The translations under genes and the position numbers were made by a program. Source: Halosegnis longus (GTDB lineage: Archaea; Halobacteriota; Halobacteria; Halobacteriales; Haloarculaceae). From it: a stretch of 64,000 nt of DNA. The DNA is taken from positions 248,001-312,000 of the forward strand of contig NZ_QKNW01000001.1 of the NCBI RefSeq assembly GCF_009663395.1. Reading direction: 5' to 3'. Shown one piece after another: positions 21,575 through 26,997 of the stretch. Numbering within the stretch: position 1 is the first letter of the stretch; the number at the start of each line of letters is the position of its first letter. The notes beneath the pieces are model-generated. The model saw nothing but the letters and a program-made list of their open reading frames with translations, made no database searches and was not told the DNA's origin.

Positions 21575-22174
21575 GTGGAGACGGTTACGACGGAGACATC
21601 CAACCCGTTCGGGATGCGTATCGACGGCCCGGCGGTGTACGGTTACGGGGACGCCAACGCCGATTTTCACGTGTTCGGGGACTCGCCGGCTCGCCACGGC
21701 GGCGCCGAGACGGGCGTCCCGTTCACCGACGGCGAGACTGGCCGCCGGCTGCAGGCGCTCGTTCACGAACTCGGCTTTGCGGCCGACGCGTACGCCGACG
21801 AGCCGGAGCTTTCGAACCTGTATCTCTCCTACATCCATCCGGGAGAGGGTGAGCCGACCCCCGCGAGCTACGCCGACCAGGAGCGGTTTCTGGACGCGGA
21901 ACTGCGAGCTATCAACGCGCACATCCTCCTGCCGGTCGGAGACCGCGCGTTCGCGTACGCGCTCGAACACCACACTTCGGTGCGCGACAAGACGGACCCG
22001 CGGACGAGTGAGATGCACGCCACCCCCGTCCGGGGGCGTGGCTTCCTCGTCATTCCGGTGAAGGAGCCGACGGAGTGGACCGAGACCGACCGCGAGCGGC
22101 TGTTCGCGACGCTGCGAGAGCTGCTCGACGGTGATTACAGACAGACGAAAGGCGTCGCGACGACGATCGGTTAG
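21575..22174 (+). CDS. Uracil-DNA glycosylase family protein
   Basis: A protein of 199 residues from GTG 21575. Motif-1-like sequence FHVFGDSPARHGGAETGVPF resembles the uracil-binding loop GEAPGxxEDxxGxPF of UDG families 4 and 5, but the acidic catalytic position and the Fe-S cysteines are absent. Later ILLPVGDRAFAYALEHHT matches the ligand-loop region. It may excise damaged bases or be a divergent, non-catalytic relative. The frame opens earlier at 21485, inside the halocyanin gene. Its stop overlaps the convergent dehalogenase stop by four bases. Confidence 0.65.
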   Translation: METVTTETSNPFGMRIDGPAVYGYGDANADFHVFGDSPARHGGAETGVPFTDGETGRRLQALVHELGFAADAYADEPELSNLYLSYIHPGEGEPTPASYADQERFLDAELRAINAHILLPVGDRAFAYALEHHTSVRDKTDPRTSEMHATPVRGRGFLVIPVKEPTEWTETDRERLFATLRELLDGDYRQTKGVATTIG

Positions 22175-23055
22175 GTTCTGTCGACGAACGCGACAATCTG
22201 TTCTGCGATTTCCTCGCCGGCGTCCTCCTGCAGGAAGTGACCACCGCCCTCGATCCACACGTCGGGCTGGTCGCTCGCGGTGGGGAGATGCTCGCGCAGC
22301 GAGTCGCGGTTGTCGTGGGTAATCGGGTCGCTGTCGGAAAAGAGCACGAACGCCGGCTTCTCCCACTCGCCGAGTCGTTCGGCCGCTGCACGCGTCATCT
22401 CCGCGCCGTCGCCGCCGTTCTTGCGCGGCACCATGTCAGGCCACGCCCGCGCGCCGGCTTTCAGTTCCGGCGTCGGGTACGGGGCCTCGTAGGCGGCGAG
22501 CGTCTCGTCGCTGAGTTCGGTTACCGTCGCGTTCTGGATGAGCATGTCCAGCGGGAGGTCGTCGGTTCGCTCCACGAAGTCGCGGAACTCCTCCCACGCG
22601 TCGGGCATCTCCTGTGTGCCGGTGGGTATCCCCGTGTTCATCGGGACGAGTCGGGCGAACCGCTCCGGATTGTTCGCGGCGAGCGTCAGCCCGAGAATCC
22701 CGCCCCAGTCCTGACACACGAGGGTGATGTTCTGGAGGTCGAGGTCGGTGATGAACCGCTCGAAAGCGTCGTAATGCATCCGGAAGCTGTACTCCTCGCG
22801 GTCGGTGTACTTGTCCGAGCGACCGAAGCCGATTGCGTCGGGGACGACGACCCGGCCCCGCTCGGACAGCCCGGGAATCAGCTTCCGGTAGAGATACCCC
22901 CACGTCGGCTCGCCGTGGAGACACAGGAAGGTCTCCTCGCCCTCGCCGACGTCGACGTACGCCATCTCCGGGTCGCCGACCGAGACGCGCTCGACCGGGT
23001 AGTCGTACTCCTCGAACGGGCCGATGTCGTCGCCGCTCGCGTCGTGTAACGCCAT
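22171..23055 (-). CDS. Haloalkane dehalogenase (alpha/beta hydrolase, HLD-I type)
   Basis: A 294-residue enzyme that would cleave carbon-halogen bonds by an ester intermediate. LHGEPTWGYLYRKLI supplies the oxyanion and halide-binding residues, CQDWGG the nucleophile (Asp116), SDSDPI the acid (Asp243 likely) and GGHFLQED the base (His273). This arrangement is that of DhlA/DhmA-type dehalogenases rather than epoxide hydrolases. True substrates in a salt environment are unknown. I chose ATG 23055 because a family-like MALHDASGDD start fits; an in-frame extension to 23103 adds 16 unrelated residues. It is convergent with the UDG-like gene. Confidence 0.87.
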   Translation of the reverse strand: MALHDASGDDIGPFEEYDYPVERVSVGDPEMAYVDVGEGEETFLCLHGEPTWGYLYRKLIPGLSERGRVVVPDAIGFGRSDKYTDREEYSFRMHYDAFERFITDLDLQNITLVCQDWGGILGLTLAANNPERFARLVPMNTGIPTGTQEMPDAWEEFRDFVERTDDLPLDMLIQNATVTELSDETLAAYEAPYPTPELKAGARAWPDMVPRKNGGDGAEMTRAAAERLGEWEKPAFVLFSDSDPITHDNRDSLREHLPTASDQPDVWIEGGGHFLQEDAGEEIAEQIVAFVDRT

Positions 23056-23131
23056 TGGCGTCTCCACACCCGGAGCCGACAAAGGCGTTGTCCACGGGAA
23101 CACTCTTCACGCGTTCCGGTGAAGCCCGTGT

Positions 23132-24445
23132 ATGCAGATTACGTGCGAGCTTCACGGCACCGTCCGAGAGGCCTACGGGGCCAAGACCGCGACGGTCGCG
23201 CTCGATTCCGGGGCGACGGTCGGAGACCTGTTGAACACACTCGACGGCGGAAACGAGCGGGTCGCCCCGCTCGTTCGCAACGGCGACGGCGGGATTCGCC
23301 CCCACATCGCCGTCCACGTCAACGGCGAGAGCGTCGCCGCGGGCGAGGGCGCGGCGACCACGCTCGCCGGCGGCGACGAGGTGACGATTCTACCGTCCGT
23401 CTCCGGTGGGAAGCCGACGCTCCCCTTCGAGATGGAGACGGTTCGACTCGGGAACGCCGCCTTCGAGGGGTTGAACAACTGCTACGTGCTCGGACTGGAG
23501 GACGACGCCGAACTCACGCTCGTCGACACCGGCTTCCCGACCGACGAGACGCGCAGCGAACTCGACCGCGGACTCGCCGACATCGGCATCGACTTTGCTG
23601 ATATCGACCGGATTCTCCTCACCCACTGGCACGGCGACCACGCCGGACTCGCCGCCGAGATTCAGGCGGCGAGCGGCTGTTCGGTCCACGTCCACGTCGA
23701 CGACGCGCCGCTCGTCGACGGCTCGGAGGCGACACAGGACATGGACGACCCGGCCTTTCGTGACACGCTCACCAAGTGGGGGATGCCGCCACAGAAGCAG
23801 ACGGATCTGGCGGAGTTCCTCGACGCGAACGCGGCGGCCTACACCCGGCCGACGGTCGAGACGTTCACCGACGGCGACCGGTTCGATCTCGGGAGCGTCG
23901 AACTCGAAGCCGTCCACCTCCCGGGCCACACCGTCGGTCTCTGCGGCTTCGCCTTCGACGGCCACGACGGGAGAGAGCTATTTTCCGGCGATGCACTGCT
24001 TCCCTACTACACCCCGAACGTCGGCGGAGCCGACGTGCGCGTCACCGAACCACTCGCGGCGTATCTCGACACGCTCGTCCGCATCATCGACGGCGAGTAC
24101 GAGCGAGCGTGGCCCGGTCACCGCGGGGCCATCGTCGACCCGACCGGCCGCGCAGCCGACATCATCGACCACCACCGCGAGCGAACCGAGCGGGTGGTCG
24201 ACGTGCTCGCCGACGGTCCCGCGACGCCGTGGGAGGTGTCGGCCGAACTGTTCGGATCGCTCCACGCGATTCACATCCTCCACGGGCCGGGCGAGGCGTT
24301 CGCCCACCTGAACCACCTCGAAGACGCCGGCCTCGCGGCGCGTGACGGCCGAGCGTACGAACTCACGACGACGAATCCGGCGACTACAGAGTTGTTCCCG
24401 ACGGTCGCCGACCGACTCCGCCCGGGCTACGAGCCCGTTCACTGA
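23132..24445 (+). CDS. MoaD/SAMP-like ubiquitin-fold domain fused to a metallo-beta-lactamase hydrolase
   Basis: A 437-residue two-part protein. Residues 1-93 are a beta-grasp domain like MoaD, ThiS or the archaeal SAMP modifiers: VREAYGAKTATVAL, VHVNGESVAAGEG, and the terminal LPSVSGG with Gly92-Gly93, which in free SAMPs is the conjugation end. Residue 94 continues at once into an MBL hydrolase with LLTHWHGDHAGL (His165, His167, Asp169, His170), LEAVHLPGHTVGL, SGDALLPYY and a C-terminal winged-helix-like tail. The hydrolase could start on its own at ATG 23432. Substrate is unknown. A weak box CACTCTTC lies 27 bp before 23132. A protease that cuts after Gly-Gly could release both parts; this is inference. 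Confidence 0.8.
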   Translation: MQITCELHGTVREAYGAKTATVALDSGATVGDLLNTLDGGNERVAPLVRNGDGGIRPHIAVHVNGESVAAGEGAATTLAGGDEVTILPSVSGGKPTLPFEMETVRLGNAAFEGLNNCYVLGLEDDAELTLVDTGFPTDETRSELDRGLADIGIDFADIDRILLTHWHGDHAGLAAEIQAASGCSVHVHVDDAPLVDGSEATQDMDDPAFRDTLTKWGMPPQKQTDLAEFLDANAAAYTRPTVETFTDGDRFDLGSVELEAVHLPGHTVGLCGFAFDGHDGRELFSGDALLPYYTPNVGGADVRVTEPLAAYLDTLVRIIDGEYERAWPGHRGAIVDPTGRAADIIDHHRERTERVVDVLADGPATPWEVSAELFGSLHAIHILHGPGEAFAHLNHLEDAGLAARDGRAYELTTTNPATTELFPTVADRLRPGYEPVH

Positions 24446-25050
24446 GTCTGCCACCGCCGCCCGGCGAGCAGACAGACGGCCCCGAGCAGGAGTGCGGCCG
24501 GCGTGAGCGTCGCGGGAAGGATGGGGTACGCCGTCTCGACGGCGGCGTACGGCGAGCGTTCGAGCGTCGTCACGAGCCACGAGACCGCCTCGGGACCGGC
24601 GTAGGGAACGAGACAGAAGCCGACGGCGATGGCCGCGGTCGTCCCGCCGGTGACGAAACCGGTCAGCGCACACAGCTCCTCGACGACGAGTATCGTCTCG
24701 GCGCGCTCGTCCGAGAGGGAGTCGCTGTGCTCTCTGAGCACACCGAGTATCGACAACACGAGCGCGACGAGCGCGAGCATCGCTAACGCGGTGAGCGCGA
24801 CCAGACTCGTGTACGTCGGGACCGTTCCGGGGTCGACCAAGATGTTCATTCCGTCCGGAGAGACGAACGCGAAGACGCCGACTGCGACGCCGAACGCGAA
24901 CAGCACCACGCCGAGCCGCTGGAGCTTCTCTGCGAGCGACCACGGAAACACCGAGACGCGCTGGACGCGGAGCCGTTCGTACGCAGACCCCTCCGTCAGC
25001 GCGGCGGCGACCGGGTCGTCGTCACGCGTGTCATCGGTACGCATTACCAT
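24439..25050 (-). CDS. Four-span membrane protein of unknown function
   Basis: A 203-residue protein with a charged, cytoplasmic-looking N-terminus (about 40 residues) and four hydrophobic spans (about 48-70, 82-105, 130-150, 175-197). No motif I recognise. It overlaps the tail of the convergent MBL fusion gene by seven bases. Start is at ATG 25050 or 25044. TTTTTTGG on the minus strand (25069-25075) lies 22-28 bp upstream of those two starts. Confidence 0.55.
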   Translation of the reverse strand: MVMRTDDTRDDDPVAAALTEGSAYERLRVQRVSVFPWSLAEKLQRLGVVLFAFGVAVGVFAFVSPDGMNILVDPGTVPTYTSLVALTALAMLALVALVLSILGVLREHSDSLSDERAETILVVEELCALTGFVTGGTTAAIAVGFCLVPYAGPEAVSWLVTTLERSPYAAVETAYPILPATLTPAALLLGAVCLLAGRRWQTQ

Positions 25051-25481: not shown

Positions 25482-25766
25482 TCAGTTCTTGTCCGTCGAC
25501 TCCTCGAACTCCACGTCTTCGTCCTCGGCGTACTCCTCGCGCGTCTCCTCGATTTCCTCCTCGCTCGCGCCGCTTTCTCGCATCTCCTGTAGCTCCTGTT
25601 CGACCTCCTCGCGGCCCTTCTGGAACTCTCCCATCGCCTCACCCGTCGAGCGGGCGAGCTTCGGAATCTTGTTTGCACCGAACAGGAGCACCGCGATACC
25701 GAGGATGATGAGCAGCTCCGGACCGGCAGGAATCCCGAACTGTGCTGGAACAAGTGTCTCGAACAT
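25482..25766 (-). CDS. tatA: Sec-independent translocase TatA (first copy)
   Basis: A 94-residue component of the twin-arginine export channel. It has one N-terminal span (ELLIILGIAVLLFGANKIPK), the FG hinge, an amphipathic helix (LARSTGEAMGEFQKGREEVE) and an acidic tail. In haloarchaea Tat carries most exported proteins because they fold in the cytoplasm. It lies 108 bp downstream of a second, nearly identical tatA. Minus-strand GCATATAGTC (about 25792-25801) lies about 30 bp before the ATG, so it has its own promoter. Confidence 0.93.
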   Translation of the reverse strand: MFETLVPAQFGIPAGPELLIILGIAVLLFGANKIPKLARSTGEAMGEFQKGREEVEQELQEMRESGASEEEIEETREEYAEDEDVEFEESTDKN

Positions 25767-25874: not shown

Positions 25875-26102
25875 TCAGTCTGCGGTCTCGGTCGCTGACT
25901 CGTCGCCGTCGGCGCGCACCTCGTCGAGTTCCTGTTGGATATCCGCACGGCCCTTCTGGAACTCACCCATCGCCTCGCCCGACGAGCGGGCGAGCTTCGG
26001 AATCTTGTTCGCGCCAAACAGGAGCACGGCGACGGCGAGGACGATGAGCAGTTCCGGGCCGGCGGGGATGCCGAACTGTGCTGGAACAAGTGTCTCGAAC
26101 AT
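25875..26102 (-). CDS. tatA: Sec-independent translocase TatA (second copy)
   Basis: A 75-residue paralogue. Its first 53 residues differ from the other copy at only a few positions (LLIVLAVAVLLF, KLARSSGEAMGEFQKG), while the acidic tail is shorter and distinct. This fits recent tandem duplication followed by tail divergence. It is divergent from an HD-domain gene. I chose ATG 26102, which aligns exactly with the start of the first copy. Two TatA types may serve different substrates or complement each other; this is not decidable here. Confidence 0.92.
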   Translation of the reverse strand: MFETLVPAQFGIPAGPELLIVLAVAVLLFGANKIPKLARSSGEAMGEFQKGRADIQQELDEVRADGDESATETAD

Positions 26103-26187
26103 GATGTACACCGACGAGTTCGGGGGTGGCGTTGTAGCTCTTTCCCGGTGGGCGAACGCTTTTCGCCGTCGCGTGGCTCCCCACAGT

Positions 26188-26997
26188 GTGAGCCGACTCG
26201 ACGACGACACACCGCGATACGACCCGGCTGCCGCCCACGCCTTCCCCGACGAGCGACTGAACGACGTGCTCGAAGCCGTCGCCGACGACGAGGAGATACA
26301 GGCGTATCTCGACGCACAGAACGTCAACCCGGTCCAACGGAAAGGGTACAACGACCACGGCGCGAAACACATCGAAATCGTCCGCGACCGCGCGCTGTGT
26401 CTGTATGACCTGCTCAAGAAGCACGACGTGGAGTTCAACGGCGCACGCCAACAGGGACTCGACGAGGCCGACGAGCCGGTCATCGTCGCGCTGGCGGCGA
26501 CGCTCCACGATATCGGCCACGTCGTCCACCGCGACGACCACCCCTACTACTCCATTCCGCTCGCGGCGGATATCCTCGAACGACTCCTCCCCGACTTCTA
26601 CGACACCACAGAGCGCGTGAAGGTGACCGGCGAAATCCTCCACGCCATCCTCTGTCACCACACCGAGGAGACGCCGCTCACCCTCGAAGCCGGCGTCGTC
26701 CGCGTGGCGGACGCACTCGACATGGAGCGGGGCCGCTCTCGGATTCCGTACGAGCGCGGCGGTCGCGGGATCAACACGCTCTCCTCGCAGGCGATTGAGG
26801 GCGTCTCGCTGACGAGCGACGACGGCCACGTCGTCGTCGAAATCGAGATGACGAACGCCGCCGGCGTCTACCAGGTGGACGAGCTATTGACGGCGAAGCT
26901 GCGCGACTCGGGACTGGAGTCACACGTCCGCGTCGTCGCCATCAACACCCACAGCGGGGACGGCGACGAGCAGTTGGTCGAGCGCATCGAGCTGTGA
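26188..26997 (+). CDS. HD-domain phosphohydrolase
   Basis: A 269-residue metal-dependent phosphohydrolase. YNDHGAKHIEIVRDRAL gives the first His, LAATLHDIGHVVHRDDHP the HD pair, ILHAILCHHT a later His, and VRVADALDMERGRSRI the terminal Asp. Nucleotides, cyclic dinucleotides or (p)ppGpp-like compounds are typical substrates, but which one is not known. The start GTG 26188 has GCTTTTCGC 27 bp upstream. An ATG at 26005 opens the same frame but lies inside the divergent tatA gene. An MFS transporter follows after 43 bp. Confidence 0.85.
   Translation: MSRLDDDTPRYDPAAAHAFPDERLNDVLEAVADDEEIQAYLDAQNVNPVQRKGYNDHGAKHIEIVRDRALCLYDLLKKHDVEFNGARQQGLDEADEPVIVALAATLHDIGHVVHRDDHPYYSIPLAADILERLLPDFYDTTERVKVTGEILHAILCHHTEETPLTLEAGVVRVADALDMERGRSRIPYERGGRGINTLSSQAIEGVSLTSDDGHVVVEIEMTNAAGVYQVDELLTAKLRDSGLESHVRVVAINTHSGDGDEQLVERIEL

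Follow-up and report, generated by a model that had tools for sequence, protein, structure and literature searches.

The analysed window, a stretch of 64,000 nucleotides from Halosegnis longus, contains a single open frame running from ATG 23132 to TGA 24443-24445 and encoding 437 amino acids in the order beta-grasp domain (residues 1-93), 7-residue junction and complete MBL-fold hydrolase. The fused Ubl-MBL gene is monocistronic; it starts 29 nt from the limit of a divergent ORF (22171-23103) and shares 7 nt with a convergent gene (24439-25050). The features of the locus are:

23132..24445, + strand: fused Ubl-MBL gene, 437 aa plus stop
23132..23410, + strand: SAMP1/MoaD-like beta-grasp (Ubl) domain, residues 1-93, assigned with NCBIfam SAMP1 and Pfam ThiS
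23405..23410, + strand: Gly92-Gly93 codons GGT GGG, predicted cleavage point, invariant in 28/28 intact homologues
23411..23431, + strand: junction KPTLPFE, residues 94-100, defined by codon comparison of six Halosegnis genomes
23432..23434, + strand: ATG of Met101, possible internal start, aligned with the starts of many stand-alone homologues
23432..24442, + strand: MBL-fold hydrolase, residues 101-437, assigned with Pfam Lactamase_B and the fold match 2zo4
24206..24331, + strand: C-terminal helical region, residues 359-400, resembling B_lactamase-like_C

The Ubl domain, whose C-terminal residues are LPSVSGG, matched NCBIfam SAMP1 with 66.8 bits in the whole protein and 70.3 bits as a domain alone (cut-off 60), and Pfam ThiS with 45.9 and 50.3 bits, respectively (cut-off 22.5). 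By both profiles, residues 1-93 form the ThiS/MoaD-type beta-grasp domain typical of SAMPs, and the closest solved structures are 2m19 of H. volcanii and SAMP1 (3po0). The encoded Gly-Gly C-terminus of SAMPs is absent: Gly92-Gly93 is internal and followed by 344 residues. The best SAMP1 match of the genome is a separate, free protein with 98 bits, compared to 66.8-70.3 bits for the fused domain, which, judged from these matches, is a paralogue and not an orthologue of H. volcanii SAMP1. Processing would be unavoidable if the genome had no SAMP1 other than the fused domain; this possibility was rejected, as a free SAMP1 is encoded at C1:777876. Two other Halosegnis genomes (L095 in G295 and L101 in G292) have an additional SAMP-like Ubl, similar to 2m19 of H. 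volcanii, and none was found in the three genomes with the fusion.

The hydrolase matched Pfam Lactamase_B over residues 113-330 with 94.4 bits (cut-off 22.7). Its metal ligands (H165xHxDH170, H266, D287 and H330) are invariant in a 38-row alignment, so that the predicted MBL fold, matched by 2zo4, has the full set of metal-binding residues. The C-terminal helical region matched Pfam PF21221 weakly, with 17.1 bits, under the cut-off of 27. The top solved match of the hydrolase is the Thermus thermophilus MBL-fold protein TTHA1429 (PDB 2zo4; Z 35.5, 296 residues aligned, rmsd 2.0), which, unlike the fused protein, has no Ubl domain. H. volcanii HVO_1041, modelled on TTHA1429, is upregulated after hypochlorite (PMC6267482) and serves as a lead only for the hydrolase described here. 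A structure model built from the 38 rows had a mean pLDDT of 86.5, with the Ubl part mostly at 60-90 and residues 90-96 (VSGGKPT) as the sole segment below 50; the joint between the Ubl and the hydrolase is thus flexible in the model. The first-pass annotation had read from the letters two domains in one frame, joined exactly at Gly-Gly, with an internal Met start at 23432. The profile matches above their cut-offs confirmed the former, the Ubl part does end at Gly93 before the junction begins, and the ATG at 23432 is the codon of Met101.

Halosegnis rubeus F17-44 (G293, 91% identity) and the MAG QH_7_65_31 (G294, 78%) carry the same fusion at this locus, each with an uninterrupted fused frame of 440 codons. 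In comparison, the remaining three of the six Halosegnis genomes compared (G292, G131 and G295) have two separate genes. The junction codons of the fused genes read GGT GGG AAG CCG ACG in the window, GGT GGG AAA CGG ACG in G293 and GGT GGC TCC GCG ACG in G294; in H. rubeus, the residues directly after Gly-Gly are KRTLPFEMETVR. In G292, the Ubl and hydrolase genes abut in frame (AVAGG-TAG-ATG-GAC-CTG-CCG, junction GGT GGA TAG ATG), whereas in G131 and G295 the Ubl ends as SVAGG-R-TGA and the hydrolase ATG overlaps the stop (ATGA) in another frame (junction GGTGGCCGATGA). The window codons AAG CCG occupy the place of TAG ATG in G292, and the fused clade has other codons in place of both the ancestral stop of the Ubl gene and the start of the hydrolase gene; therefore, no single sequencing error explains the fusion. 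The fused trio forms one clade (support 100/100) nested among separate pairs. At the level of codons and phylogeny, it could be shown that a translationally coupled Ubl-MBL pair was turned into one frame in the ancestor of the trio by loss of the stop and the adjacent start. Four other Halosegnis contigs have orthologues in the corresponding position, and since the neighbouring genes are common to all four named contigs, the loci are orthologous. From sequence reading, we take these neighbours to be photolyase-like, TatA, HD-domain and MFS genes. Two adjacent TatA-like open frames (window 25482-25766 and 25875-26483, - strand) share a near-identical N-terminal segment (MFETLVPAQFGIPAGPELLI...), a duplication also seen in related contigs.

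Across the fused trio, dN/dS amounted to 0.32-0.45 in the Ubl part, where Fisher tests gave p 0.001 and 0.005, and to 0.10-0.24 in the hydrolase; by these ratios, the fusion is under purifying selection. The first-pass annotation had left room for a read-through caused by a frameshift or sequencing error, and for closest homologues devoid of the N-terminal domain. The nearest homologues (91% and 78%) carry the same fusion, and an artefact was rejected on the presence in three genomes, the two replaced codons and the dN/dS values. Among the matches listed from sampled sets of 292 class and 393 phylum genomes, there was no second full-length match outside Halosegnis. A different idea is that the hydrolase is mainly produced separately from the internal ATG 23432. 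Met101 is retained in 3/3 fused genomes and aligns with many stand-alone homologue starts, yet no SD-like sequence at normal spacing precedes its ATG, and the hydrolase start of the nearer relatives, 6-9 codons upstream of Met101, is gone in the fused clade. Since it would also leave the open and selected Ubl frame unexplained, production mainly from this internal start is regarded as very unlikely.

The comparison of organisms with separate adjacent genes, to which the first-pass annotation had pointed along with a search for the same fusion (found in G293 and G294), proved rich: in 25 genomes of the window's haloarchaeal family, the orthologous hydrolase is immediately preceded by an intact, separate Ubl gene. 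The Ubl-hydrolase gene pair is older than the fusion. In other genomes, the Ubl gene has been lost, has decayed to a remnant (G036), has suffered an internal deletion (G325) or is reduced to its last codons (G330). Several relatives kept the hydrolase and lost the Ubl, and therefore the Ubl is not essential to the hydrolase. At the inspected loci outside the window's haloarchaeal family, no Ubl was found upstream of the hydrolase; L027 and L035, labelled as another family with the Ubl present, correspond to G156 and G237, which are members of the window's family. Only 2/25 separate Ubls end at Gly-Gly (G292 and G329), while 23/25 have tails of 1-70 residues after it, with no common sequence. 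The tails (L010, L011, L013, L027, L035 and others) often end in an ATGA/GTGA overlap with the hydrolase start.

An important question is why Gly-Gly persists in front of such divergent tails. It is invariant in 28/28 intact Ubls (25 separate and 3 fused), whose mean identity is 47%, and both glycines belong to the 7/93 columns that are invariant in the alignment of the 28. In the fused trio alone, 57/93 columns are invariant and the chance of Gly-Gly retention is 0.37, which is not significant. The codons could have been kept as DNA, as the ribosome-binding site of the downstream hydrolase, leaving the fused Gly-Gly as a relic on a Ubl end that no longer functions. Indeed, several pairs have GGTGG or GGAGG at 2-5 nt upstream of the start codon of the hydrolase, and in G330 (L135:1400-1510), where the rest of the Ubl is gone, the final codons GGAGGATAGATG were kept, apparently as the hydrolase ribosome-binding site. 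For the short-tail pairs, this appears from the spacing to be a real, albeit partial, explanation. As the sole reason it was rejected, because in 12 pairs Gly-Gly is located at least 32 nt from the hydrolase start and the fused trio has no start codon near Gly-Gly at SD spacing; for the same reasons, a function at the protein end explains Gly-Gly better, and a mere relic is highly improbable.

To our knowledge, the H. volcanii SAMPs studied are encoded with a free Gly-Gly end and need no maturation; linear SAMP fusions were engineered in that organism. One of these, SAMP1-MoaE, is cleaved by HvJAMM1 after the terminal Gly in vitro. The fusion is also cut by HvJAMM1 in vivo, whereas no cleavage could be detected in cells for variants lacking GG or VSGG (PMC4443979). 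This construct and the natural Ubl-MoaE proteins, the latter reported among archaea in Crenarchaeota only (PMC4443979), share with the fused protein an N-terminal Ubl, a Gly-Gly joint and a metabolic enzyme behind it; the likeness to SAMP1-MoaE extends to the SAMP1-type VSGG end and a JAMM1 in the genome. The differences are that the partner here is an MBL-fold hydrolase instead of MoaE and that a haloarchaeon carries the fusion naturally. Caldiarchaeum Ub/SAMP precursors likewise have residues after Gly-Gly and are processed by the JAMM family, CsJAMM cutting tailed SAMP precursors (PMC6043591); the CsUb tail has nine residues, as opposed to a whole enzyme here and tails of 1-70 residues in the relatives. 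In eukaryotic ubiquitin/FUBI-ribosomal protein fusions (PMC8354635), a Ubl likewise precedes an unrelated protein, with Gly-Gly at the joint, and is set free by cleavage, albeit by another protease family and with ubiquitin and a ribosomal protein in place of the SAMP domain and the MBL hydrolase. Known Ubl fusion partners include MoaE, ThiG, Cgi121, E1 and others (PMC1779556, PMC2948915, PMC4443979), and a search by terms of two surveys on the fusions and gene neighbourhoods of Ubls (PMC1779556, PMC2948915) found no Ubl-MBL fusion. No report of such a fusion, or of a Ubl-MBL gene pair, was found in the open-access full texts searched.

The genome of H. longus encodes the following components of the SAMP system:

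C1:1280768: UbaA (E1-like)
C1:1281907: JAMM1-like protease, intact HSHP...D motif
C1:1772628: JAMM2-like protease, intact HSHP...D motif
C1:362188: MobB-MoaE
C1:777876: free SAMP1, ending FPPVSGG-stop
C1:1034002-1034199, - strand: SAMP2, ending RLIKGG-RWD

The fused protein thus has the make-up of a linear Ubl precursor, with Gly-Gly followed directly by a C-terminal extension and with two JAB/JAMM proteins in the same genome, the activity of which is predicted from homology. Moreover, SAMP2 itself is tailed in the fused clade: the residues after Gly-Gly are RWD in the window genome, RWG in G293 and RY in G294. SAMP2 ends at GG in G292, G131, G295 and 23/24 further genomes read, so that a tail is present in 3/3 fused genomes versus 1/27 others, the exception being the MAG G322 (DGRHA). 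The tailed SAMP2 and the fused gene both map to one branch of the tree, and their co-occurrence therefore counts as a single event. In H. volcanii, UbaA adenylates the C-terminal carboxylate of SAMP2 (PMC4048286); SAMP2 trimming would therefore be needed in the fused clade, if SAMP2 works there.

These observations rather favour a natural Ubl precursor, from which JAMM cleavage would yield a modifier and a hydrolase, as the more probable nature of the fused protein. The cut after Gly93 would be made by a JAMM/MPN+ protease, for which the JAMM1 orthologue is the likeliest candidate, and would release, in equal amounts, a Ubl with a usable Gly-Gly and a hydrolase starting with KPTLPFEMET. The freed Ubl would then be activated by UbaA for sulfur carriage or sampylation, and the uncut Ubl would not be activatable; the modifier thus probably needs a protease cut at Gly-Gly before it can work. 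Alternatively, the fusion might be fixed, the Ubl staying on the hydrolase as a docking or regulatory domain with Gly-Gly in a flexible linker. Three species hold the fusion stably, the two genes have long been paired and are in many cases coupled, as genes of two subunits would be, and a free Gly-Gly end is absent from most unfused partners as well. However, an uncut linker would not need an invariant Gly-Gly, which was kept across unrelated tails, and some relatives kept the hydrolase without the Ubl, so a fixed fusion is considered unlikely, though worth serious consideration. Cleavage is favoured over it because 23 Ubls with tails and the 3 fused ones retained Gly-Gly, residues 90-96 are the sole disordered segment of the structure model, SAMP2 is tailed in the same genomes, and the published HvJAMM1 activity acts on a VSGG end such as the fused Ubl also has.

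A broader and more tentative proposal, possible but short of probable, is that of a dedicated, hitherto undescribed haloarchaeal Ubl-MBL module, whose Ubl is in almost all cases made in masked form (tailed or fused) and freed by JAMM. As part of the same tentative proposal, masking may tie the activation of the Ubl to the hydrolase, e.g. through reversible SAMP linkage to it or sulfur delivery, and one clade would have come to depend on the processing of precursors for SAMP2 as well. The Ubl-MBL family offers both natural substrates and an evolutionary series from overlapping through abutting genes to the fusion, with the linked prediction that SAMP2 trimming is required in the same species as the fusion. 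The question of whether Ubl precursors are matured in haloarchaea, and by which JAMM, thereby becomes directly testable, and an unassigned family of MBL hydrolases is linked to the SAMP system. In Halosegnis genomes, ubaA and the JAMM1-like gene (C1:1280768-1282221) are convergent neighbours about 430 nt apart.
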